DNA from: Methylocystis echinoides | GTDB lineage: Bacteria; Pseudomonadota; Alphaproteobacteria; Rhizobiales; Beijerinckiaceae | Assembly: GCF_040687965.1 (NCBI RefSeq) | Contig: NZ_CP156084.1 | Location: 386,501 to 450,500 of the forward strand | Direction: 5' to 3' | DNA: 64,000 bases | Shown: positions 2,034 through 29,527 of the stretch, piece by piece | How positions within the stretch are numbered: the first letter of the stretch is position 1 | How the letters are laid out: each line of letters opens with the position of its first letter | Notes under the pieces: generated by a model | What the model saw: only the letters and a program-made list of their open reading frames with translations | The model's database searches: none | What the model was told of the DNA's origin: nothing | Translations under genes and position numbers: made by a program

Positions 2034-2890
2034 CAGTCCCTCAGCAATTCATTGATGCCGGTCTTGGAGCGCGTCTGTGCGTCGACCGTCTTCACGATCA
2101 CGGCGCAGTAAAGCGACGGTCCGGGCGTTCCGTCGGGCAGCGGCTTGCCGGGAAGGCTCCCCGATACGACGACCGAATAAGGCGGCACAAAGCCGACATG
2201 AACCTTCCCGGTCGCGCGGTCGACGATCTTGGTCGAAGCGCCGATGAAGACGCCCATGGACAGCACCGAACCCTTGCCGATGACGACGCCCTCGACCACT
2301 TCCGAGCGCGCGCCGATGAAGCAGTCGTCCTCGATGATCGTCGGATTGGCCTGCAGGGGCTCCAGCACGCCGCCGACGCCGACGCCGCCCGAGAGATGGA
2401 CATTCTTGCCGATCTGCGCGCAGGAGCCGACCGTCACCCAGGTGTCGACCATGGTCCCGGCGTCGACATAGGCGCCGAGATTGACAAAGGAGGGCATGAG
2501 AATCGCGCCCGGCGCCACATAGGCCGAGTGGCGCACGATCGCGCCCGGCACGGAGCGGAAGCCCGCCGCCGTATGCTCGGCCGCGCCCCAGCCCAAAAAT
2601 TTGGAGGGCACCTTGTCCCACCAAGTGGCGCCGCCGGGGCCGCCCGGGATCACCGACATGTCATTCAGGCGGAAGGAGAGCAGCACGGCCTTCTTGAGCC
2701 ACTGATTCACCTTCCAGGATTGAGGCCCCTCCTCGCCTTCGATCTTCTCGGCCACCCTCAGCTTGCCGGAATCGAGCAGGCGCAGCGCGCTGTCGACGGC
2801 GCGGCGGATGTCGCCCTGGGTTTCCGTATTGATGTTGGCCCGGTCTTCAAAGGCGGCGGTGATGAGGGTCTCGAGTCCCGTGTGCGGCAT
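2033..2890 (-). CDS. dapD: Tetrahydrodipicolinate N-succinyltransferase
   Basis: Transfers succinyl from succinyl-CoA to 2,3,4,5-tetrahydropyridine-2,6-dicarboxylate, the step that commits to the succinylase lysine pathway. The 285 residues match the family. The N-terminal helical region is followed by a left-handed beta-helix of hexapeptide repeats (for example [17 protein letters not shown] and [17 protein letters not shown]), and the C-terminus has the usual [19 protein letters not shown]-type end. The neighbouring dapE completes two of the pathway's steps in one transcription unit. Confidence 0.96.
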
Positions 2891-2961
2891 GAACGTTCCG
2901 TGCGAAGTGAAAAAGCTCGGCTGGTTGTAGGGGTACGGCGGGGGGAGTCAACCGGCGCCTG

Positions 2962-3702
2962 TCACCTGGCCAGCGCCTCCAGAAACCCGACGAGATCGTT
3001 GGTCACAAAATCCAGATGCGGCTCCTCGCCCGTCGCGATCTCCCAGGCCTCGCGTTCAACCTCCTCCCCCACGGCTGGCGCGACCAGCACCGTCGTCATG
3101 CCGCGCGCATGGGGCACGATGAGATTGCGGGGAAGGTCCTCGAAGAGCGCGGCGCGTTCGGGGTCGACTTTGAGATGGGCGAAGAAGCGCTCGTAAGCGG
3201 CCTCCTCGGGCTTGGCGATAAAATCGGCGGCGATGATGTCGAATATATCCTCGAAGAGATGATCGATCCCGAGCTGCTTCGCCGTCTCGATCGCATGATG
3301 GCGCGAACCATTGGTGAGGATCAGCTTGCGGCCCGGCAGCGCGGCGATCGCCTCGGCAAGCGAGTGATTATGCGCAAGCGACGAGCGGTCGATGTCGTGC
3401 ACGAATTTCAGATAAACTTCCGCGTCGATATCGTGCTCCATCATGAGCCCGCGCAGCGTCGTGCCGTAGCGCAGATAATAATGCTTCTGCAGCGCCCGTA
3501 GCGAGATCGCGTCGAGGCCGAAAAGCCGCATCATGAAAAGCGTGATGCGCGCGTCGATCTTGGGCCAGAGGTCGGCGGTCTGCGGATAGAGCGTATTGTC
3601 GAGATCGAACACCCATGTGTCGATATGCGCGAAGCGGTCCTTGAGCGCCTTCTCCCCGCTGGCGGGGGGAGCGTCAAAGTGAGGGGCCAAAGGTTTCTTC
3701 AC
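2962..3702 (-). CDS. HAD-family pyrimidine 5'-nucleotidase-like phosphatase
   Basis: A 246-residue HAD hydrolase of the pyrimidine 5'-nucleotidase (SDT1-like) type. The DxD nucleophile motif reads [11 protein letters not shown] near residue 30, motif II is LILTNGS, and motif IV is around FEDLPRNL. The expected role is dephosphorylation of nucleoside monophosphates, though the substrate cannot be read from sequence. Its ATG overlaps the argB stop by four bases, which supports this start and translational coupling. The first 20 or so residues ([13 protein letters not shown]) are encoded by a GC-rich palindrome resembling an intergenic repeat; the family core begins after it. Confidence 0.85.
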
Positions 3703-4568
3703 CGCGTGATCAGCGTGCCCGCGCCGTGATCGGTGAGCAGCTCCACGAGCACCGCATGCGGCAGTTTGCCGTCGAGGATAACGACGCCTTCGACGCCGCG
3801 CTCGATCGCGTACATGCAGGTTTCGACCTTCGGGATCATGCCCCCCGTAATGGTGCCGTCGGCGATGAGGCCCGGAATGTCGGAGACCTTGAGCTCCTCG
3901 ATGAGCTTCTTCTCCTTGTCGAGCACGCCCGGCACGTCGGTCAGGAACAAAAGGCGCTTGGCGCCGAGGGCGCCGGCGATGGCGCCGGCGAATGTGTCGG
4001 CGTTGACGTTGAAGCTCGCCCCGCCCGGCCCCTGCGCCACCGGCGCCAGCACCGGGATGAGCTCGCGGCCGAGCACCTGGTCGAGCACCGTCGTGTCGAC
4101 CTTGTCGGGCTCGCCAACATAACCGAGATCGACGCCGTCGGGGCGCTCGAGTTTCTTGGCCGTGACCATGCGGCCGTCCTTGCCGGTGAGGCCAATGGCG
4201 CGGCCGCCCACCGCATTGATGTAGCCGACGATCTGCTTGTTGATGGCGCCGGCGAGCACCATTTCGACAATGCCCATGGTCTCGCCGTCGGTGATGCGCA
4301 AGCCGTCGGCGAAGCGGGATTCGACGCCCAGTCGCTTCAGCATGGCCCCGATCTGCGGCCCGCCGCCATGCACCACCACCGGGTTCACGCCGGACTGTTC
4401 GAGCAGCACCATGTCGCGCGAGAAGTCGCGCGCCACCTCGTCGTCGCCCATGGCGTGGCCGCCGTATTTCACAACGACAATGGCGTCGTCGTAGCGCTGC
4501 ATATGCGGCAGCGCCTGCATCAGAATCCGGGCCTGTTCGAGCGCGCTGTCGGCGGGGTGCGTGGTCAT
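3699..4568 (-). CDS. argB: Acetylglutamate kinase
   Basis: Phosphorylates N-acetyl-L-glutamate in arginine synthesis; cytoplasmic amino-acid-kinase fold. The 289 residues are of normal length. Clear motifs are [12 protein letters not shown] (phosphate-binding Lys), [10 protein letters not shown] (substrate loop) and a C-terminal [10 protein letters not shown] segment. The N-terminal helix typical of arginine-sensitive hexameric forms appears to be present ([19 protein letters not shown]), so feedback by arginine is plausible but inferred. It lies downstream of engB and overlaps the following HAD gene by ATGA. Confidence 0.96.
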
Positions 4569-4593
4569 GAGGCGTCCTGACGGTTTAGCGCCT

Positions 4594-4629
4594 CCCTCTC
4601 CCGCATCGCGGGCGAGGGCTGGGAGAGGG
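4594..4629. repeat. REP-like GC-rich palindrome between engB and argB
   Basis: An imperfect inverted repeat: ccctctcc at the left arm, gggagaggg at the right arm, and an inner ccgc/gcgg pairing. It fills most of the 93-base gap between the engB stop and the argB start. The form is that of the short palindromic repeats scattered between genes in many Hyphomicrobiales genomes. It could fold in RNA and affect readthrough. Confidence 0.55.
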
Positions 4630-4661
4630 CGGTGCGAACTAGCCCGTTCGAACCTTCATAT

Positions 4662-5318
4662 TCAAGCCCCTCGTTCGGCGAGCAGCTTCGCCACGGCCCC
4701 CCGCAGCGCGGCGATCCCCTCCCCCGTATGCGACGAGGTGAAGAGAATGTCTGGAAAGGCGGCCGGGCGCTTGGCCAGGGCCTCGGCGGTCGCCGCGAGG
4801 ACGCTCTCCCTCTCGGCGGCCTTCAACTCGTCATGCTTAGTCAGGACGACCTGATAGGAAACGGCGGACTGGTCGAGAAGATCCAGCATCTCGGCGTCGA
4901 CCGGCTTCACGCCGCGGCGTCCGTCGATCAGCACGAAGACACGGGTGAGCGAGGCGCGGCCCCTCAGATAGTCGCGCATCAGCACGCCCCAGCTCGCGAC
5001 CTTCTCCTTGCCGACGGCCGCATAGCCATAGCCGGGCATATCGACGAGGCGCAGACGTTCGGCGCCGGGCGCGCCGCCGAGCGCGAAGAAATTGAGTTGC
5101 TGCGTGCGCCCCGGCGTATGAGAGACGCGCGCGAGCGTCTTGCGGTTGGTGAGCGCGTTGAGCAGCGACGACTTGCCCACATTGGAGCGGCCCGCAAAGG
5201 CGATCTCCGGCGGGCCCAGCGGCGGCAGATCGCCGGCCTTTGCGCTCGCGAAAATGAACTCGCAAGGGCCGGCGAAGAGGATGCGGCCGTCCTCGAAAAA
5301 ATCGGGCTCGTCGGTCAT
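4662..5318 (-). CDS. engB: Ribosome biogenesis GTP-binding protein EngB/YsxC
   Basis: An essential small GTPase needed for large ribosomal subunit assembly. The 218 residues include G1 GRSNVGKSS (about 43-51), the switch region TPGRTQQLNFF, G3 DMPGYG (about 93-98) and G4 LTKHD. It follows yidC in the minus-strand operon, with a strong stem-loop between them, and is followed by argB. The ATG at 5318 gives the expected short acidic N-terminus before the G domain. Confidence 0.95.
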   Translation of the reverse strand: MTDEPDFFEDGRILFAGPCEFIFASAKAGDLPPLGPPEIAFAGRSNVGKSSLLNALTNRKTLARVSHTPGRTQQLNFFALGGAPGAERLRLVDMPGYGYAAVGKEKVASWGVLMRDYLRGRASLTRVFVLIDGRRGVKPVDAEMLDLLDQSAVSYQVVLTKHDELKAAERESVLAATAEALAKRPAAFPDILFTSSHTGEGIAALRGAVAKLLAERGA

Positions 5319-5337
5319 CGTCTGCTTGAAAAGCCTT

Positions 5338-5362
5338 GCGGCCGGGAGGTCGTCCCGGCCGC
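5338..5362 (-). terminator. Stem-loop between yidC and engB
   Basis: A perfect 10-base-pair stem (gcggccggga / tcccggccgc) with a 5-base loop, just after the yidC stop. In the minus-strand transcript it is followed by AAGGCTTTTC, which has only a short T run. It could be a weak intrinsic terminator or a processing site that sets different levels of yidC and engB/argB. Confidence 0.6.
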
Positions 5363-5369
5363 TTGAGTG

Positions 5370-7151
5370 TTACGCCATGCCGAAAGTCTTGCGGAGATTG
5401 TCCCACAATTCGAACTTCACGCCGGCGCGCTTCATGATGACGCCCTGCTGGATGATGGAGAGCAGATTGTTCCACGACCAGTAGATGATGAGGCCGGAGG
5501 CGAAGCTGCCCATGGTGAAGGTGAACATCACCGGCATCCAGGCGAACATGGTGCGCTGGATTTCGTCGGTCGGCTCGGGATTCATCTTCATTTGCAGCCA
5601 CATGGTGACGCCCATCACCAGCGGCCACACGCCCAGCGCCAGATACGGCCCGAAAATCGCGACGTGCGTCGGATCGAAGGGCAGCAGGCCGAACAGGTTG
5701 AAGATATTCGTGGGGTCGGGCGCCGAGAGGTCCTTGATCCAGCCGAAGAAGGGAGCGTGGCGCATCTCAATCGTGACCACGAGCACCTTATAGAGCGAGA
5801 AGAACACCGGAATCTGCAACAGCACCGGCAGACAGCCGCTCGCGGGATTGACCTTCTCCCGCTTGTAGAGCTCCATCTGCTCCATGTTGAACTTGTGCTT
5901 GTCGTCGCCGTATTTTTCTTTCAGCTCTTTGATCTTGGGCTGAATCTCCTTCATCTTGGCGATCGACTTGTAGCTCTTGTTGGCGAGCGGCAGGAAGGCG
6001 AGCTTCACAATAACCGTCACCGCCAGGATCGCGAGGCCGAAATTGCCGAGCACGCGATAGAGGAAGTCGATCAGGCGGAACATCGGCCGCGTGATGAAAT
6101 AGAACCAGCCCCAGTCGATGAGGAGGTCGAAGCGCTTCAGGCCCGGGTTCGCCTTATAGGCGTCGAGCGTATCGACTTCCTTGGCGCCGGCGAAGACATA
6201 AGCCGTCGTCTCGGCGGTCGCGCCGGGCTCGATCGTCTTCGGCTCGGTGACGGTCGCGGCCTGATAGGTCTTGGTGGCGCCGCCCATGGCGACATAGCGG
6301 GCCTCGATCGAGGCGTTCTGGTCGGGCGCGACCACGGCGCCCCAATATTTGTCGGTGAGGCCGACCCAGCCGCCAACGCCCTTGAAGGTCTTGGTGGCGT
6401 CGGGCTCTTTCTCGATCTTGTCGTAGTTGAGCTCTTCGGCCTTGTCGCCGATGACGCCGGTGAAGCCCTCGTGAAGGATGGCGTAGCCGGAGGACGGCGG
6501 ACGGCCGATGCGGTTGATGCGCGAATAGTTGTACAGCGTGACGGGCCTGCCCGCCTTGTTCTCGACGCTGTCCTTGACGGTGAAGAGATATTCGTCGTCG
6601 ACCGAAATCACCCGCTTGAAGACGAGGCCCTGGCCATTGTCCCAGGTGAGCGTCACCGGCTTGCCGGAGGTGAGCTTGTCAGAGTCGGCGGTCCAAAGCG
6701 TTTCCGTCGTCGGCAGCGCGGGCGCGTTCTCTGTCTCGCCGGTCACGAAACCCATCTCGGCGAAATAGGGGCTCGGCCCATATTCCGGCGACAGCAGAGT
6801 GATGATGGGGCTCGTCGGGTCGACCGTCTGGCGATAGTGCTTGAGCGAGACGTCGTCGATGCGGGCGCCTTTGAGCGCGATGGAGCCGGCGATCGACCGC
6901 GTGTCGATCGTCACGCGCGGGCTCAGCGCCAGAGCCTCCTCGCGCGTGCGCACGGCGGGCGTCGCGGGCGCAGCGACGCCCCCGGCCTGCTCGGGCGCGC
7001 CGAGCTTGGGCGCCTTCGCCAATTTCATCTGCTGGGTCTGCGCCTGCTTCTGCCGCTCGAACTCGGGGAAGGCGTAGAAATAATCCCACAGCCCGATGAA
7101 GATCAGCGAGAGCGCCGCGGCCATGAGCATGTTCTTGGTGTTTTCGGTCAT
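5370..7151 (-). CDS. yidC: Membrane protein insertase YidC
   Basis: Inserts and folds inner-membrane proteins, alone or with SecYEG. The protein is 593 residues from the ATG at 7151. It has an N-terminal membrane anchor (about 8-25), a large periplasmic beta domain in the first 350 residues, and the conserved C-terminal insertase domain with about five membrane segments ([20 protein letters not shown] onward). The frame stays open far upstream, but the first ATG giving a proper YidC N-terminus ([10 protein letters not shown]) overlaps the rnpA stop as ATGA, so I chose it. No yidD lies between rnpA and yidC. Confidence 0.96.
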
Positions 7152-20936: not shown

Positions 20937-21770
20937 CTATGCCTTCGCCGCGCCGGTGTGAATGATCGTTCCCACATGCTCGCCCCGCAAAGCGGCTGTG
21001 AGCCGGCCGGGCGCGAGGCCGTTGACGATCTGCACATGCTCGAGGTGGCGGGCCGTGGCCATCACATCGAGAAGCGCGCGGTCGAAAGGCAGAGAGCCCT
21101 CGACCTTCGCGAGATCGGCGGCGCTCGTCTCGCGCAGGAGCTGCGCCTGCTGACCCTCGGGGCCTTTCGGATCGGCCGTATACACCCCGTCCACATCTTC
21201 CACGATCGTCAGACCGGCCGCGCCGAGCGCGTCCGCCACGAGAAAGGCGCCCGTGTCGGCCCGGTGTGGCGGAATGCGGGACGTCGGGAACTCATGGTGG
21301 TGATAGGGCGGGAAAGCGCTCCCCACCACCGCGCGGGCGGCGGAGAGATGGATCGCGAGCTGGCTCGCGATCGTCGGATGCTCGACATAGGAGACGCCCT
21401 CGGGGGCGAGCAGCGAGGCGAGGATGTGGCCGTTCTGGCCTGCTTCGCTCGCGGCGAGCGGCGCAAGCGATCCCACGGGCAGGCCGAGGTCGAGACCGAC
21501 GCCGTAGAGATGGCGCGCGCGCACGCCTGCGCCGGTCAATATGAGCATGCGATGCTCGGGCAGGAGTTTACGCAGCTCCTCCACGACGGGAAGGATCGCC
21601 TCCGCGCCGCGATCCATGATGGACCGGCCGCCGATCTTGACGACATGAAGCCAAGGAAGCAGCCGGATCGGACGCCGGCCGGCGACCGGACGGGTGAGGT
21701 CGCTGTCGAGAAGGGTCTGGCGCGCGAGCGGCGAGGCGACATGCTTGATGCTGTTAACCGTGTCGGTCAT
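20937..21770 (-). CDS. mosB: Molybdenum storage protein beta subunit
   Basis: A subunit of the MoSto cage, which in Azotobacter stores molybdate as polyoxometalate clusters in an ATP-dependent way. The 277 residues have the amino-acid-kinase fold with the nucleotide-binding [13 protein letters not shown] near residue 43, the [16 protein letters not shown] loop, and [13 protein letters not shown] toward the C-terminus. It starts 12 bases after the mosA stop, with AGAAAG as ribosome-binding site. The two subunits are clearly paralogous, as in known MoSto. Confidence 0.9.
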
Positions 21771-21782
21771 GGCCGTCTTTCT

Positions 21783-22592
21783 TCAGCTCGCGGTGATGAT
21801 GGTGCCAACATGTTCGCCGGCGAGCGCGCGGGTCAGATTGCCCGGAACCAGGCCGTTCACGACCTGCACCTCGCGAACGTGGCGCGCCGCCTTCAAGAGG
21901 TCGAGCACGGGGAATTCGAGAATCGAATCGTGCAGGCCCTGCGCCTTCATCTCGTCGACCGAAATTCTTGCAATGAATTTGGCGTCCTTTGCAGTTTTCG
22001 GATTCGCCGTATAGAGCCCGTCCTCATCCTTCACAAAGATCATGGCCTTGCAGCCGAACTGCTCGGCAAGCAGAAAGCATCCGGCGTCGGTGCGGTAAGG
22101 GGGAATGACGCCCTCGGCGGCAGGACGCATCCAGAGATTATACGGCGGCATGCCGCTGAAGACGACGGCGTTGACCTCGGCGAGATAGAGCGGCACTGCA
22201 GACATCCCGGCGCCGTTGACCGCCGAGACCCCGTGCTTTGCGAGGAGTTGACCGAGCATCGCGGCGTTCTGATCGGCGACGGAGGCTCCGAGTTGCGACA
22301 GGACGCCCGCCGGCAGGCCGAGCCCCGCCGCAATCGAATAGAGATGCCGAGCTCTTGTGCCGGCGCCGGTTCCGATGAGCAGCTTATGCGCTTTGCGCGC
22401 AGCGACGATCTCGTCGACGAGAGGGTAGAGGGCGGCGCGGCCACGATCGATGACGCTCTGCCCGCCGATCTTGATTACTGTCGCGTCCGGCAAAATACGG
22501 AAATCGGCGGCGGCTTCAGCCGCGGCCAAGAGCTGCGGATCGGTCAGCGATCGCTGCATGAGGAGCGCTTCGAGCTCCGCCGTCGTGGACAT
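21783..22592 (-). CDS. mosA: Molybdenum storage protein alpha subunit
   Basis: Pairs with MosB to form the MoSto heterohexamer. The 269 residues are close to the Azotobacter length. Conserved segments are TVIKIGGQSVIDRG, LIGTGAGTRARHLYSIAAG and FVKDEDGLYTANPKT. I chose the ATG at 22592 because the open frame upstream is not family-like. I found no sigma-54 or ModE-type site upstream, so how it is regulated cannot be read here. Its presence implies the cell stockpiles molybdenum, as nitrogen fixers do. Confidence 0.9.
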   Translation of the reverse strand: MSTTAELEALLMQRSLTDPQLLAAAEAAADFRILPDATVIKIGGQSVIDRGRAALYPLVDEIVAARKAHKLLIGTGAGTRARHLYSIAAGLGLPAGVLSQLGASVADQNAAMLGQLLAKHGVSAVNGAGMSAVPLYLAEVNAVVFSGMPPYNLWMRPAAEGVIPPYRTDAGCFLLAEQFGCKAMIFVKDEDGLYTANPKTAKDAKFIARISVDEMKAQGLHDSILEFPVLDLLKAARHVREVQVVNGLVPGNLTRALAGEHVGTIITAS

Positions 22593-22785
22593 GAGACGCC
22601 TTTCGTTCGTCGCCAATCGCCCAAGCGCCGAACTGGGAGAAGTTTTTCCGACGCTGTCCAGGGCGTTGGCCCCTTGCAATGCCTTGGGTAAAGGCGGAGG
22701 CGCGCCTCTGCAATATGCGAAAATCGCGTGTTGTTTATGGGATTGGCCAGGCGATTGCGGAATTTTCGCGCGGTCCGAATCGTTA

Positions 22786-22805: not shown

Positions 22806-23414
22806 TCACCGCTTCGGCGCCGGATAACAGGCCGTCGAAGCGTCTTTTCCATCGGGCTCGATGACCGAAGAACAATCGAAATTCGGATCCATCGGCGGGC
22901 GCGGCGGAAGAGCTCCCCCAGGCCCGCCGCCTCCCCTTTCCAGGGCGCCGCCGAAGGGAGCCGCATATCGAACTTGCGCGGCGCGATAGTCGATGTGCAG
23001 GTCGCGGCTTAATGCGCTTCTCGCGCCGAACCTGACGATGTTGCCGGCGATGAGCGGCGAAACGGTGATGCTCTGATTGGATCGGACCTCCACGGCAAAA
23101 CCCGTTTGTCTGGGATGAAAATAAATCCCGCTTTTCTTGCCTGCCCAGCCGGCGGCGCCGCTTATGCCGACGCTGCACCCCTGCCGAAACATCCTTTCGC
23201 ATTCGGGACGCGAGGAAAAGCGCGGCGCCTTCTCGCGAAACTCAGCTTCGGCGTTGAGCGCCGCATTGCTGCAAATCATCTCGCTGACTTTCCCACTCGC
23301 GCGGCAGCCGGCTTCGGAACCGAATATATGCGTTCCAGGCTGGTTGCTTTGCGCTGCCGCTGACGTCGCCGGCGGGTCAAGGAATAAAGCAATCAGGATC
23401 AAAGAACGTCGCAT
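22806..23414 (-). CDS. Exported DUF1190 (YgiB)-like protein
   Basis: A 202-residue protein with an N-terminal signal peptide (about 1-21, LILIALFLDPPATSAAA). The region after it carries the Cys-rich pattern of YgiB/DUF1190 proteins: MICSNAALNAEAEFREKAPR then PECERMFRQGC. A Gly/Pro-rich low-complexity segment (GGGGPGGALPPRPP) and a short Cys-containing tail end the protein. The family is of unknown function. It lies upstream of mosA on the same strand, but 213 bases and a palindrome separate them, so co-transcription is uncertain. Confidence 0.65.
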   Translation of the reverse strand: MRRSLILIALFLDPPATSAAAQSNQPGTHIFGSEAGCRASGKVSEMICSNAALNAEAEFREKAPRFSSRPECERMFRQGCSVGISGAAGWAGKKSGIYFHPRQTGFAVEVRSNQSITVSPLIAGNIVRFGARSALSRDLHIDYRAAQVRYAAPFGGALERGGGGPGGALPPRPPMDPNFDCSSVIEPDGKDASTACYPAPKR

Positions 23415-23946
23415 ATCCAGCTCCTTGGTCTTCTGAAATTATTTCTTGCTCAAGGCGGCGACCCCTGCTGCTGCGGTCAAGAGACGTCGCTGGGCGTCGG
23501 CGCATGTAAGCCCCGACGCCGTCTGCTTTTCATTTCTTACCATGAAGATTGGAGAAACTTAGACCGGCGCATGGAGGCGCTAGCGTTACGATGCGTCGTT
23601 GCTTTGCGCCGGCCGGGCTGTGCTGGTGGAGCCTGCGCTTGATCTCCGCCACCCTGCGGCGAGAGAAAGCGACCGAGAGACCGCAACGATCCGAGTCGCG
23701 CTTACCGGCTTTTCCATTATGCTCGCGGTCGCGGCGGCGGCCATGCGCTTATTATAAGGGGCGGATGAGCCCAACGGCCGTCGCCGGCTGGGCTCCCGCA
23801 GTGGCGCCGTCGACCGCGCTTGGCGCAAAGCTGGGTTATTCGGCATCGACATTCGCGCAAGATTGGCGCTATTGCGCCTTATCGCGCATGCCTTTGACCT
23901 GACGCGCCGCCCTCAATTGGCTTCCGCCAGAATAGCGCGCGCTAGG
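23415..23946. other. Gene-free stretch before the IS1595 element
   Basis: No frame here has a family match, a ribosome-binding site or natural composition. The last part, 23870-23946, is the original downstream flank of the VanZ gene: joined to 26805 onward without the transposon it continues that gene to its native stop. Confidence 0.5.
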
Positions 23947-23954
23947 CTTTCTTT
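23947..23954 (+). repeat. Left copy of the IS1595 target-site duplication
   Basis: CTTTCTTT, identical to 26797-26804 at the other end of the element. An intact duplication indicates simple, relatively recent transposition. Confidence 0.92.
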
Positions 23955-24144
23955 GGTGATTATGTAGTTTACAAACCATTGGAGAATCGGATAGCATTCC
24001 TTCTGGATCGATGGTTATGCAGTTTTCGCACGGCACTGTCCGGTCATGGCATTGTCCATGTGCGCAGTAAGTGACTAGAGACCTGCGCTTGGGAAGTAGC
24101 TCAGGAGGTAGAGTCACGCCGTTATTTCCATTCAGGAGGTTGCT

Positions 24145-24378
24145 ATGGCTAGAGCGCAATATTTCGTCGTCCATCACGATGGCCAGTGGAAGATCAGATA
24201 TGATGGGACTCACTATGGGCCATACGCGTCGCAAGCCCTCGCCATACAACAGGCCATCAACTCAGCCCATGAAGCTGGCAGACTTGGACATGACGCACAG
24301 GTTCTTGTCCAAGGTCAGAACAATCAGTTCCGCACAGAATGGACATACGGCCACGATCCATACCCGCCGAAAGGCTGA
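24145..24378 (+). CDS. DUF2188-like small passenger protein
   Basis: A 77-residue protein beginning MARAQYFVVHHDGQWKIRYD, with a small alpha/beta pattern (strand, GPYASQALAIQQAI helix, strand) like DUF2188 domains. An excellent AGGAGG site lies seven bases before the ATG. It is the first passenger gene after the left repeat. The function is unknown. Confidence 0.7.
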   Translation: MARAQYFVVHHDGQWKIRYDGTHYGPYASQALAIQQAINSAHEAGRLGHDAQVLVQGQNNQFRTEWTYGHDPYPPKG

Positions 24379-24410
24379 CCAGCAAACCATTCTACTAAGG
24401 AGATTTTACC

Positions 24411-24617
24411 ATGGCCGACGCCGCGCCTGTTGCCCACATCGGGGAGAATTCGCCTGAGCAGGTCGCTTACAAACTGTTCCAGACAATTGCAGCATACGAG
24501 GCTTGCAAAACACGCGAAGCTATTCTTGACCTGTATTCTGAGTGCCTGCTCGCTGTCCGTAACCCGGCCGGTCGGCTGAAAGGAAATCATGATAATCTTG
24601 CGCCGCCGCGACGATAG
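24411..24617 (+). CDS. Small passenger protein of unknown function
   Basis: A 68-residue protein starting MADAAPVAHIGENSPEQVAY, with a helical middle (LFQTIAAYEACKTREAILDL). AAGGAG precedes the ATG, 33 bases after the DUF2188-like gene, so the two are likely co-transcribed. Its last third overlaps, on the opposite strand, the 3' end of a minus-strand small gene, so the true C-terminus could be altered by element decay. Confidence 0.5.
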   Translation: MADAAPVAHIGENSPEQVAYKLFQTIAAYEACKTREAILDLYSECLLAVRNPAGRLKGNHDNLAPPRR

Positions 24618-24708
24618 TAGATGCGCCAACACCCTTATCATGTGATTGGACAGCTAGCTTAAGTGCTTCAACTCTAAGCTCATCATCAGTCATATATGCG
24701 GCTCTCAT
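24520..24708 (-). CDS. Possible small passenger protein on the minus strand
   Basis: Reads MRAAYMTDDELRVEALKLAV and then a helical region (STIVAAAQDYHDFL), a coherent amphipathic pattern; the tail is less natural. A start at the second Met (24693) is also possible. No strong ribosome-binding site is seen, and the gene overlaps the plus-strand passenger gene ending at 24617. Only one of the two overlapping tails may be real. Confidence 0.4.
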   Translation of the reverse strand: MRAAYMTDDELRVEALKLAVQSHDKGVGASTIVAAAQDYHDFLSADRPGYGQRAGTQNTGQE

Positions 24709-24727
24709 TTGCGACCGCTGGCGAGGC

Positions 24728-24916
24728 TCAGCGGTCGTCTTTGCTCTGGGTTGGTTGGCTTTTCGCAGCACCTTCCTCGCTGTCTTTCGGTGGCTTATGC
24801 TTAGCAACCTTCTTTAGCGCCTCGTCAAAGCGCTCTTCGGATTCGTCGCAGCCGATGGCACGGGCCGCGTCGACAAAGGCATCTGATTGCTTCTTTTCTT
24901 TAGGAGTTTTCGTCAT
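24728..24916 (-). CDS. Small acidic/basic passenger protein
   Basis: A 62-residue charged protein with the pattern SDAFVDAARAIGCDESEERF followed by DEALKKVAKHKPP. I recall similar short proteins in mobile elements of Hyphomicrobiales, which needs a database check. Its ATG (24914-24916) overlaps the ATG of the divergent DUF3800 gene inside the palindrome TCATGA. No clear ribosome-binding site precedes it. Confidence 0.5.
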   Translation of the reverse strand: MTKTPKEKKQSDAFVDAARAIGCDESEERFDEALKKVAKHKPPKDSEEGAAKSQPTQSKDDR

Positions 24917-25628
24917 GAGTTATATCGCTTTCATTGACGAGTCCGGCGATCATGGCCTTGAAGTCATAGACCCATCGTCTCCCGTTTTTGTCCTTGGATG
25001 CGCTCTTTACCAAACTGACGACTATCTCGGCAAAGAGACGCCATTGATGACGAAGCTGAAAATTGAGAGATGGGGCCACGAAGGCGTAGTCTTCCACTCA
25101 TATGAAATCAGAAAGAAACGCGGGCAATTCTCATTCTGCGCCGACTCATCGGAAGCTAAGAAGCTACACCAAGAAATAGGCGACTTTTTTAAAAAGTCAT
25201 CAGCTACCCTTATCGCCGCCGCGATAGACAAGGAAAGACACAAGAAACAATACTCTTCCCCTGAAGACCCTTATTTCCTTTCAATGCAGTTCGTTCTTGA
25301 ACGCATCCACAAAGCTACTTACGGCCGCGTTCACCTTGTATTCGAATCGAGAGGGGTAAAAGAGAATGCAATTGTCTCGAATTGGACAAACGAGATTTGC
25401 GGCGGACGCAACTACAGGTCAAAAAAATTCGATTTCACCCACTGTTTTTCCGAGAAAAAGTTCAACGTTACAGGGCTTCAAGTCGCTGACCTTGCCAGCT
25501 ACCCCATATCGCACTTCGTTCGGAATAGGGAGACGAAACGGCCAGACTGGGTGGCAGTTAAGCCCCGGTTAAGGCAATCAATGGACGGCCAAATCATAGG
25601 CTATGGCCTAAAGATTTTCCCTTCATAA
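24915..25628 (+). CDS. DUF3800-domain protein (transposon passenger)
   Basis: A 237-residue protein with the DUF3800 signature at the N-terminus (YIAFIDESGDHGL, then FVLGCALY) and the C-terminal NVTGLQVADLASYPISH segment. DUF3800 proteins are predicted to have an RNase H-like fold with acidic active-site residues, but no activity is established. Such genes are frequent on mobile elements. The ATG at 24915 has TTTAGGAG upstream; the frame open before it is a shadow of the minus-strand small gene. It is the largest cargo gene of the IS1595 element. Confidence 0.85.
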   Translation: MSYIAFIDESGDHGLEVIDPSSPVFVLGCALYQTDDYLGKETPLMTKLKIERWGHEGVVFHSYEIRKKRGQFSFCADSSEAKKLHQEIGDFFKKSSATLIAAAIDKERHKKQYSSPEDPYFLSMQFVLERIHKATYGRVHLVFESRGVKENAIVSNWTNEICGGRNYRSKKFDFTHCFSEKKFNVTGLQVADLASYPISHFVRNRETKRPDWVAVKPRLRQSMDGQIIGYGLKIFPS

Positions 25629-25752
25629 AGCAGAAGGGGCATCCAGAAATGGATGCCCCTCGCCGACCGACATAACGCCAATCCATTTGGGAAAAGAATA
25701 TGGCGCGGGTAGCATTTTGTCAAGTAGAATCAGCGGCTTGCTAAGCCACTGA

Positions 25753-26733
25753 TCAGAATCTTCTTTCGTTTTGTTCCGCCGCCTCGTCAGGCCAGCGATA
25801 AGTCAGACGCTTACCAACAATGCCTCGCAACGCGAGACTAGCCCGCTGCTGATCCTCACAACCCCGCGCAGAGCGGTTGTTGTAGCGAAAATCAAACTCC
25901 GCCAGATAGCGGTGAAGGTGTTTTTCGCCGCAGTGCTGGTAGACGCCCTTCATGCCGCGCTTGAAGATTGAGAAATAGCCCTCAATCGTGTTCGTGTGGA
26001 TGGCGCTCTCACCTTCGTAGCGAACGTATTCTTCGGCGCTGTGACGCACGGTCGAATGTTCAGCGAACGATTTGCCAACCTCAGGATATAGGCGGCTTTC
26101 GTCCGTGTAGAGCTTCGTTTCGCGGTCGATGTTCTCACCGACAATCTTGGCGACCTCTTTCTTGTTCACCTTGTCGACGTGGAACGAACGAACCGAGCCA
26201 CCGCGCTCGACAAGGGCCACAACCGCACGCTTGCCAGCCGGGCCGCGCTTGCCGCCCTTGGCGAACGGGCGGCCACTCGTGGTTGCTCCCGGCTGGTCTG
26301 CCGTCTTGCCGAAATATGTTTCGTCGGCCTCGACAACGCCGCCCGCGCCACCCATCGGGGCAAGCGTGCCGTCTCGCATAGCCTCGCGGATGCGATGCGC
26401 CAGAAACCACGCCGTCTTATACTGAACCTCAAGAACGCGGTGCAGCTGATGCGCGCTGATGCCCTTCTTCGAGGAAGTCATCAAGTAGACAGCCTGAAGC
26501 ATCTTGTTCAACGGGATATGCGCGGATTCGAAAACCGTGCCGACCTTCACCGTGAACTGCTTGCGGCAATCAGAACATTTGCGCAGGCCCATGCGCGTCT
26601 TGTGCAGGTCGTAATGCTTTCCAGAGACCGAGCCGCAATGCGGGCAGACCGGGCCTTCCGGCCACAGAACGCTTTCAAGATGAGCGAAAGCAGCGGCTTC
26701 GTCGTGGAAATAAGGCTTCGAAAGCACAGACAT
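25753..26733 (-). CDS. IS1595-family (ISXO2-like) transposase
   Basis: The 326-residue protein appears intact. The N-terminal zinc ribbon has CPHCGSVSG and CSDCRKQF (about residues 32-60), and the DDE-type core has VVEADETYFGK, LYTDESRLY and HTNTIEGYFSIFKRG. The length matches the family and no frameshift is visible. It reads inward from the right terminal repeat, which lies 40 bases upstream of its start. Intact ends, duplication and transposase suggest the element may still be mobile. Confidence 0.93.
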   Translation of the reverse strand: MSVLSKPYFHDEAAAFAHLESVLWPEGPVCPHCGSVSGKHYDLHKTRMGLRKCSDCRKQFTVKVGTVFESAHIPLNKMLQAVYLMTSSKKGISAHQLHRVLEVQYKTAWFLAHRIREAMRDGTLAPMGGAGGVVEADETYFGKTADQPGATTSGRPFAKGGKRGPAGKRAVVALVERGGSVRSFHVDKVNKKEVAKIVGENIDRETKLYTDESRLYPEVGKSFAEHSTVRHSAEEYVRYEGESAIHTNTIEGYFSIFKRGMKGVYQHCGEKHLHRYLAEFDFRYNNRSARGCEDQQRASLALRGIVGKRLTYRWPDEAAEQNERRF

Positions 26734-26779
26734 AGGTATAGCTCCTTGACTCTGAAGCTACTACCCGCTTGGTGGTTTG

Positions 26780-27268
26780 TCAACTACATAATCGCCCTTT
26801 CTTTCCTAACTCGCGCAGTTTCTGGACCGCCGCGGCCGCGGCGATCGCCGCCATCGGGCGACGCGCGATATGTGCGGCGGCGATGCGCGCGACAAGCGCC
26901 CCGAACAACACCCCCGCCGTCAAGCCGCTCGCGCTCGCCAGCGCATCGCTCAAACTCGGCGTGCGCCCCGGCGACAACTGCTGGGCGACTTCGAGGACGC
27001 CGCTCGCCACCGCAAGGCACGACCATCCGAGAAGGCGCTGGCGAAGCGACGACGCCGCCAGCGGCAGAAAAAATCCAGCGCCGGCATAGGCGATGAAATG
27101 CTCGAATTCTTTCGGCATGCCGGTCTCGGGCCGCTCGGCGTAGGGCACGAGCGACAGAACGACGATGGCGACGACGCACGCGGCGACCGCCAGGCGCGCC
27201 GGACGCGAGATCTTATCGCTTTGCAAAAGACCGGCGGGCTCTTCAGACGCGCCTTGGATATCAGCCAT
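26780..27268 (-). CDS. VanZ-family membrane protein, 3' end altered by IS1595
   Basis: A protein of about 162 residues with four hydrophobic segments and the VanZ-like pattern FEHFIAYAGAGFFLPLA and VLEVAQQLSPGRTPSLSDAL. The function is unknown; VanZ of enterococci affects teicoplanin resistance. The transposon entered after the codons for ELGKK: the present end reads GKK-GRLCS-stop using transposon bases, whereas the rejoined native sequence reads GKKA-stop. The protein is therefore nearly unchanged. The ATG at 27268 is one plausible start; the frame is open to 27334. Confidence 0.8.
   Translation of the reverse strand: MADIQGASEEPAGLLQSDKISRPARLAVAACVVAIVVLSLVPYAERPETGMPKEFEHFIAYAGAGFFLPLAASSLRQRLLGWSCLAVASGVLEVAQQLSPGRTPSLSDALASASGLTAGVLFGALVARIAAAHIARRPMAAIAAAAAVQKLRELGKKGRLCS
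26797..26804 (+). repeat. Right copy of the IS1595 target-site duplication
   Basis: CTTTCTTT, identical to 23947-23954. On the minus strand these bases encode Lys-Lys near the end of the VanZ-family protein. Confidence 0.92.
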
Positions 27269-27568
27269 TTGGATCGAAACGTTAACGGTCGCCAATGCGG
27301 CTTTCAACCGTAGCATCCTGCGCCAGCGATGCAAAATCCCGCGCTCCGGCGTCGCCGCGCGTGACGCGTGCGAAAGCTGAAAGGGCGCAACGAAATCGGC
27401 CTAGGCGTCCCCGCAGGAGGAAATGGCGATTCTTCGGATTATGAGTCAGATAATGAGGCTTTGTCGCGCATCCGCACACGGCGCCGCGCCCATCTGCGTC
27501 GCGGCCGCCGGCACGAGACGACGCCGACAGGGATTGATAAAAACTCCTGTCGGCGGCGTTTACTGTGT
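27269..27568. other. Gene-free stretch with a stem-loop after the GME gene
   Basis: No gene is recognised. A stem-loop lies at about 27523-27557, with arms gccgacagg and cctgtcggc around a 14-base AT-rich loop. It follows the stop of the epimerase gene that reads leftward, so it is a candidate terminator, though no T run follows it. Confidence 0.45.
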
Positions 27569-28543: not shown

Positions 28544-29182
28544 AATCCGTCCTTCCGAATTTGCTTCGTCCTGCCCCTTCCCCAGATGCGTCCGGCGACA
28601 TGCGGGGGAGAGACGCAAATACGTCGGATTTTGGGCGAATGCAATAGACGAGGCCCGTGTTGAACAAGTCAAGCATTAGGGGCATTCCAGTAAGTCATTG
28701 GCTCTTTCAAAACGCTCTGTGGAGGACCGTCGCCGCGCCGCTTAGACCTTCGGCGCGCGCATCTCCTCAGAAAACCAGCAGTAGAGCTAAAGCCCACCAC
28801 TTCTTTCCCGCTCGTCGTTCACGCATTCGAGATCCGCGTTCTTCTCTTTACGGAAGGCTCAACCGGCAAGGGTCGATAACGCAGTTTGTCGCGCCTCGAC
28901 GTCGCGCCGCCGGGTCGGCTTTTCCATTGACTGAATGATCAGCATCGAAAGCAAGCAGACCCGTCTGGCAGGCGCGAGAGAATAATAGCGGCTCCGGCGC
29001 GCTGCTCGTAAACTGGCTTCGTTTCGCCAAACGCCAGGTACTAGGCTTATTCCTAATAAGGCTGCAGCAGCCAATCGGCTAGCTGTTCGCGCCAACATCG
29101 GCCGGGGGGCGTCATCCTGCGCATCGGCCCCTGTGTGCCCACAAAACGGGTGGTCGAGCTCATTTCGCGCGGCACGCCTGGC
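28544..29182. other. Gene-free stretch between gme and the IS66 relic
   Basis: No supported gene. The last part (about 29030-29182) should hold the IS66 left end and tnpA, but I find neither a GTAAGCG-type end nor a tnpA frame. The IS66 copy appears truncated on this side. Confidence 0.45.
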
Positions 29183-29527
29183 ATGATCCCTCCACATGCT
29201 CGTATTGTTCTGGCGACGACACCGGTCGATTTTCGCAAAGGCCCGGACGGGCTGGCGTCGCTCGTGCGCGACGCTGGCGGCGATCCCTTCGGGGGCGCCC
29301 TTTACGTCTTTCGAGCCAAGCGCGCCGATCGCGTGAAGATTATCTGGTGGGACGGCACGAGCCTGTGCCTGTTCGCCAAGCGACTGGAGACAGATCGTTT
29401 CTGCTGGCCGAAGCTCATGTCGGGAACGATCCATATGTCCGTTTCCCAGCTTACGGCCCTCGTCGAGGGCATGGATTGGACACGGCTTCGCAGCGCCCCC
29501 CAAACAAGGCCGACGAGCGTCGGCTGA
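29183..29527 (+). CDS. tnpB: IS66-family TnpB (Orf2)
   Basis: A 114-residue IS66 accessory protein with the hallmark PVDFRKGPDGLASLVRD and ALYVFRAKRADRVKIIWWDG, and CLFAKRLETDRFCWP near the middle. It appears full length from the ATG at 29183. TnpB of IS66 is needed for transposition together with TnpA and TnpC. Here TnpA is missing and TnpC is broken, so it is part of a dead element. Confidence 0.85.
   Translation: MIPPHARIVLATTPVDFRKGPDGLASLVRDAGGDPFGGALYVFRAKRADRVKIIWWDGTSLCLFAKRLETDRFCWPKLMSGTIHMSVSQLTALVEGMDWTRLRSAPQTRPTSVG

Follow-up and report, generated by a model that had tools for sequence, protein, structure and literature searches.

A compact IS1595-family transposon of Methylocystis echinoides with a conserved small gene and cargo that varies between relatives

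Results

The element at the locus

The present study concerns a transposon of the IS1595 family in Methylocystis echinoides, a methane-oxidising bacterium, located in a stretch of 64,000 nucleotides of contig NZ_CP156084.1 (positions 386,501 to 450,500; this whole stretch is hereafter the window). The element is complete and intact, spans 2842 bp (window 23955-26796) and carries, besides its transposase, at least five small open reading frames (ORFs) as cargo, which code for a DUF2188 protein, a product of 68 amino acids (aa), two short proteins (24520-24708 and 24728-24916) and a DUF3800 protein (Table 1). A first-pass annotation had described a complete, intact IS1595 transposon with both ends and a perfect 8-bp duplication, more than half of it cargo, and had named DUF2188 and DUF3800 among the passengers; this was borne out by the ends, the 8/8 match of the duplication, the full-length transposase and the Pfam matches, while its count of four passenger genes was too low.

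The transposase matched the IS1595 model NF033547 (E=7.6e-60), Pfam DDE_Tnp_IS1595 (6.7e-34) and a zinc ribbon (7.1e-14). The N-terminal zinc ribbon and the IS1595-type DDE domain by which the family is recognized are present, as are the terminal inverted repeats, imperfect with 18/20 first positions matching between the two ends, and the 8-bp duplication (8/8). The DDE+K residues were conserved almost throughout the aligned sequences, the window's included (D137, D211 and K258 in 71/71, E251 in 70/71). The left end reads GGTGATTATGTAGTTTACAAACCA from 23955 and the right end, as reverse complement, GGCGATTATGTAGTTGACAAACCA from 26796. When the 64-kb window was scanned with a matrix of 178 ends of related elements, the window's own two among them, only these two element ends exceeded 11 bits (next best site 10.9), and they are therefore not due to chance.

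Table 1. Features of the IS1595-family element and its target gene, in window coordinates.
Feature	Position	Strand	Basis or remark
Target-site duplication, left copy, 8 bp, CTTTCTTT	23947..23954	.	Sequence reading; 8/8 match
Left terminal inverted repeat, cargo-side end	23955..23978	+	31.9 bits in matrix scan
DUF2188 protein, 77 aa, cargo	24145..24378	+	Pfam DUF2188, E=9.5e-8
68-aa cargo ORF, weakest of the ORF calls	24411..24617	+	Open reading frame
62-aa ORF, phage-type small protein, cargo	24520..24708	-	Longer TTG start at 24807
62-aa conserved small protein of the IS1595 lineage	24728..24916	-	Invariant Q10, F14, A18, F30 in alignment A8
DUF3800 protein, 237 aa, cargo	24915..25628	+	Pfam DUF3800, E=3.7e-12
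IS1595-family DDE transposase, 326 aa, intact, full length	25753..26733	-	NF033547 and Pfam
Right terminal inverted repeat, transposase-side end	26773..26796	-	35.5 bits in matrix scan
Target-site duplication, right copy, 8 bp, CTTTCTTT	26797..26804	.	8/8 match
Host ORF, presumably VanZ-like	26780..27334	-	Last codons inside transposon end

Related elements

A transposase scan confirmed at least 555 stretches with a relative, of which 80 named loci, nearly all from Alphaproteobacteria, were kept; 52 of these were taken as complete elements by set cut-offs and 28 were dropped. A first set held 49 transposases, 37 of them in elements complete by ends and duplication (33 with 8/8, four with 7/8) and 12 dropped for unconvincing ends; it is partly biased, many of its loci having been fetched through the small protein described below. 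Three complete elements were common to both sets, leaving 86 distinct ones. Their sizes ranged from 1.9 to 4.0 kb, and the target duplications were AT-rich (74% vs 36.5% in the flanks, 52 elements). Across 100 relatives, DNA similarity to the window element was found only on the transposase side, except for 67 bp within the small gene of genome G002; close relatives with the same sequence but without the ends, which would have spoken against a transposon, were not seen.

A conserved small gene

The ORF at 24728-24916, whose start codon overlaps that of the DUF3800 gene (CATG at 24914-24917), recurs in related elements beside different DUF3800 proteins or other cargo. The first-pass annotation had counted it among short cargo proteins of no recognized kind, but it is a near-constant part of this IS1595 lineage and not cargo; the other cargo varies between elements with near-identical transposases. 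A family of small proteins of about 60 aa was detected at 75/80 named transposase loci, 70 with the window's subtype and five with a second one, and the five loci lacking it lie on contigs with 0.4-1.0 kb remaining beyond the transposase. The gene is present in each of the 52 complete named elements (48 with one subtype, four with the second; in a few cases the score is only 16-18 bits) and in 35/37 complete elements of the first set. A comparison of the two subtypes by five-row profiles gave nothing, and later profiles match some sequences with both. At the named loci, small gene and transposase share a strand where the gene is of the window's subtype, and have opposite strands in the five cases of the second.

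Searches with the small protein itself yielded, at order level, 26 places in 24/297 genomes, the window's own included, and IS1595 transposase sequence was present in the fetched stretch for 19 of them, four as fragments or broken copies (L055, L065, L066, L067) and one, L054, on the other strand. At class level, 19 places were obtained in 16/289 genomes; for the 17 places beyond G000 and G046, transposase sequence was found at 13 (one a 21-bit fragment, four broken or partial).

Differences within the small gene concentrate at third codon positions, amounting to 99/117 in the pairwise core comparison of five Sphingopyxis elements and 101/140 in that of four Mesorhizobium elements, with a weaker share in three other groups (38/68, 18/35 and 52/93). 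Judged by this codon pattern, the gene is under purifying selection in the relatives and hence a real protein gene. The alignment of the protein (A8) comprises 52 rows, and its structure model shows two helices and a disordered tail at low confidence, with a predicted local distance difference test (pLDDT) value of 71.

With regard to layout, automatic calls in 48 complete elements placed the small gene in tandem after cargo in 23; in 18 it stands head-to-head with cargo in antisense orientation, and in seven it comes directly after the transposase. Of these calls, 4/18 and 3/23 rest on doubtful ORFs and 5/23 have gaps of 214-265 bp. The small protein could thus serve the cargo at large, as an antitoxin or a chaperone-like partner, each element being a mobile toxin-antitoxin cassette, as it adjoins a cargo gene in most elements and toxin families (PIN, PemK) occur among the cargo. 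We regard this as rather unlikely, since a single small family would need to neutralise many unrelated cargo families, since the gene directly follows the transposase in the seven elements mentioned, and since small-protein identity tracks transposase identity (Mantel rho 0.376, p=0.001, n=71). DUF3800 relatives on plasmids argue in the same direction: 47 plasmid records contain one, and in the 7.7-kb stretch of each of the five inspected (31-38% identity) neither the small gene nor an IS1595 transposase was found nearby, so that DUF3800 is independent of the small protein there, which fits ownership of the latter by the transposon.

Cargo exchange and cargo content

In the relatives, comparison of DNA shows cargo to differ between otherwise near-identical elements. 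Five Sphingopyxis elements (L145, L146, L148, L151, L154) have transposases 93-99% identical and different cargo; conserved DNA comprises about 1,000-1,040 bp covering left end and transposase, 89-143 bp within the small gene and 26-28 bp at the right end (111 and 134 bp in two pairs), and the remaining DNA is unrelated by blastn, save for one stretch in L148 and L154. No motif was recognized by eye at the cargo boundaries of the Sphingopyxis elements. With cargo families defined by blastp at 1e-4 in 49 complete elements, a family was shared by 4/51 element pairs with transposases at least 80% identical, compared with 2/44 at 70-80%, 14/520 at 60-70% and 21/561 at 50-60%.

Once ORFs overlapping the transposase are removed, each of the 52 complete named elements still has one or more other ORFs of at least 100 aa. 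For this set 104 cargo ORFs were kept (7/111 dropped for such overlap; a few of the 104, e.g. in L137 and L185, represent the small gene itself in a longer reading). Pfam (E up to 0.001) assigned 15 to DUF3800, six to PIN, two each to DUF5343, PIN_10 and NYN, and one each to 18 further families. In the first set, 15/30 cargo proteins matched at E up to 0.01, with families including FRG, P63C, NYN, MethyltransfD12, Beta_protein and PIN, besides N6_N4_Mtase with Mrr_cat, PemK, SocA_Panacea and a Clp protease; Pfam DUF3800 was matched by 10/16 candidate DUF3800 rows.

Among ten chosen cargo proteins, PADLOC recognized BstA in L146 (1.6e-115) and L161 (9.2e-116), PD-Lambda-5 A/B in L152 (3.7e-164, 4.3e-119) and a pAgo-like protein in L150 (5.6e-42), while the other five had no match. 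BstA is an abortive-infection protein demonstrated by experiment, according to PMC8585504.

The cargo proteins of the window element

A structure model of the DUF3800 protein, built with 15 sequences, reached a pLDDT of 82.8 and a predicted template modelling (TM) score (pTM) of 0.84. Its best match in the PDB was the RNase HII 1eke (E=1.3e-4, TM 0.51, 9% identity), and conservation reaches at least 90% at residues D8, E9, Q189 and D192. The protein is accordingly predicted to have an RNase H-like (RNase HII-like) fold and to be a nuclease candidate, as the first-pass annotation had supposed for its domain. The RNase H-like fold is also used by DDE transposases, and DUF3800 is the commonest cargo family (15/104 ORFs); both facts would suit a scenario in which DUF3800 and DUF2188 aid transposition, for instance through a nuclease acting on transposition intermediates, and have no part in defence. 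We consider this very unlikely, given that most of the 52 elements have no recognizable DUF3800 and that DUF3800 genes occur on plasmids with no IS1595 nearby. PMC10910872 and PMC12669027 describe an RNase H fold for DUF3800, in accordance with this model. The match to the PADLOC model DUF3800_VII was weak (E=0.003).

The DUF2188 protein matched the PADLOC candidate model PDC-S16 (E=1e-11) and phrog_3220 (4.1e-10). Its residues 3-45 also matched, weakly, part of the DarG antitoxin models (E 0.004, 0.011), and more distant relatives occur in eight streptococcal phage records. For the 68-aa ORF the best family matches lay at E of about 0.1 (Pfam, PHROG), with none in PADLOC or in the profile set containing NF033547. 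Read from the longer start as 95 aa, the ORF at 24520-24708 matched phrog_10556 (E=1.1e-6) over residues 40-79; an ORF of similar appearance, judged by eye, adjoins the small gene in the element of G054 (L054:5690-5977).

Insertion site and further observations

A DNA search of the 4.35-Mb genome disclosed no second copy, the element being single-copy. Insertion took place at the last codons of the gene that we take to be VanZ-like, of which only the C-terminus is altered, ending in ...GKKGRLCS* compared with ...GKKA* at the empty site obtained by joining the window's own flanks by script. The right flank was searched against 38 other genomes of the genus, 13 of which gave short matches of at most 174 bases, and no usable orthologous empty site was obtained. 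In three separate Sphingopyxis records (L145, L146, L154) the 8-bp target is identical (ACAAGTGT), which suggests a target preference beyond AT-richness.

A tRNA gene or a DUF3800-type RNA in the left part of the element was considered and discarded, as ARAGORN and Rfam found none within the element; the DUF3800-associated RNA motifs considered included DUF3800-I and DUF3800-IX, and cmscan of 23000-27500 up to E=5 returned only two unrelated matches, far below gathering scores. Just upstream of the DUF2188 gene, at 24096-24113, lies an 18-mer resembling a tRNA D-arm (GTAGCTCAGGAGGTAGAG), where no tRNA was called; nothing similar turned up in the 36 other complete elements compared, and a query of 86 bases that included it had no further match in the genome (E up to 1).

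A phage origin of the element was rejected, as neither it nor the small protein found a match among phages. The IMG/VR phage contig L002 (terminase and portal by eye) contains DUF2188, the small gene and DUF3800 at 4352-6407, with a terminal-repeat-like site at 4352 (16.3 bits; background five sites of at least 16 bits in 763,978 flank positions); as an insertion L002 is not proven, since this site falls within an ORF and the contig breaks off inside DUF3800, before any transposase.

Several loci show further rearrangement or unusual company. In the sister Methylocystis element L023 (G002), ORFs at 2636-3705 that we take to be IS481-like transposase genes split the DUF3800 cargo gene, and in G054 (contig 44; L024/L054) a second IS1595 transposase lies within a DUF3800-small-gene element, between pieces of its DUF3800. 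On plasmid pMOC1 of Methylobacterium oryzae (L221) an IS1595 transposase, a 288-aa protein, a VapC-type toxin and the small gene stand in a row, a layout like that of L026 and L068. At L064 (6370-9105) an ORF resembling the small gene occurs without IS1595, near a protein that by eye resembles TIR-type nucleotide sensors.

Elsewhere in the window, two adjacent amino-acid-kinase-like genes (20937-22679) presumably resemble molybdenum storage protein subunits, and an ORF at 29135-29527, which we take to resemble IS66 TnpB, may be the remnant of a second insertion sequence.

Discussion

We read the element, with a probability of roughly 0.7, as a compact cargo-exchange transposon of the IS1595 family, with a constant core and an accessory gene, whose cargo is kept for an advantage in conflicts and whose small protein serves the transposon. 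The DDE+K transposase would recognise the 24-bp ends. As the anatomy shows, insertion creates an 8-bp duplication, and most targets of this lineage are AT-rich; the copy route would be that expected for the IS1595 family. The constant core consists of the transposase, the small protein and the two ends, and cargo occupies two gaps, one from the transposase to the small gene and one from the small gene to the far end. Cargo is most likely kept because it gives host or element an advantage when in conflict with phages or with other mobile DNA. The small protein most likely works for the transposon, regulating the transposase or acting as its partner, and not for any single cargo protein.

A further-reaching proposal, put forward here tentatively, is that these elements form a miniature platform, mostly in Alphaproteobacteria, of a fixed transposase, an obligatory protein of about 60 aa and swapped anti-phage or conflict genes, and would then be the smallest class of dedicated defence transposons.

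Several observations weigh against the cargo-exchange interpretation. L148 and L154 have a stretch of 148 bp (75%) in common within the far cargo region. Transposase sequence was absent from the stretch for 7/26 (order) and 4/17 (class) small-gene places, and the search for the terminal pattern (two mismatches) was noisy, the pattern itself giving 20 matches and its reversed control 10. The tight coupling of small gene and cargo would equally suit a cargo partner or an antitoxin. PADLOC families numbered 65 in the 104 cargo ORFs and 45 in 104 flanking ORFs (42/146 control ORFs dropped at random), a control that is not clean; because flanking ORFs match PADLOC too, defence enrichment of the cargo is unproven. 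The first-pass annotation had thought a defence role conceivable, and this finds an echo in the known defence systems of sister elements, while nothing shows defence for the DUF3800 protein of the window.

Moreover, at least 59 of the 104 cargo ORFs had no Pfam match. This would also be expected of an ordinary passenger-carrying IS1595 element, in which the small ORF and the variable cargo are neutral hitch-hikers without shared function, and passenger-bearing elements of the family (tIS) are known (PMC5704250). Such neutrality is nevertheless improbable in view of the near-universal small gene, the purifying selection on it and the lack of any bare element among the 52 complete named ones.

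If the pattern of a cargo-exchange transposon holds, cargo can be recognised by its place between transposase and small gene. Much of this cargo has no known function, and the gap offers a handle for discovery, by which new defence genes could be found there. The elements raise two testable questions, namely the task of the near-universal small protein and the way in which cargo is exchanged between a transposase block of 1 kb, a gene core of about 100 bp and a short right end.

Comparison with known systems

DUF3800 proteins occur in type VII retrons, together with a reverse transcriptase. With these and with some CRISPR-Cas loci the window element has in common the domain and the RNase H-like fold; for the fold of DUF3800 see PMC10910872 and PMC12669027. 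It differs in that its six scanned ORFs include no Cas protein and no reverse transcriptase, the latter being what together with DUF3800 defines a type VII retron. Tn7-like transposons resemble the present elements in combining a constant core with highly variable cargo that includes defence systems (PMC8649781). The present elements, in contrast, measure 2-4 kb and have a single DDE transposase, and no Tn7-type target-selection proteins were among the ORFs scanned.

Within the family, IS1595 elements with passengers are known and called tIS, among them tISCpe8, which carries lincomycin resistance and is mobilisable, and MTnSag1; according to PMC5704250, the window element shares with them the IS1595 transposase, the terminal repeats, the 8-bp duplication and a passenger. 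Unlike tISCpe8, it has no resistance gene among the ORFs scanned and carries other cargo. The ISNwi1 subgroup of ISfinder comprises passenger-carrying elements of 1.75-4.75 kb, a range into which the 1.9-4.0 kb of the present elements fits, and the transposase family, the 8-bp duplication, the short ends and the possession of passengers are likewise the same. No printed report of the small gene or of mosaic cargo was found in the open-licence papers searched. As passengers of IS1595 elements are already known, what appears to be new here, from the sequences compared, and what sets the present elements apart from ISNwi1-like ones, is the near-constant small gene in combination with a mosaic replacement of cargo.

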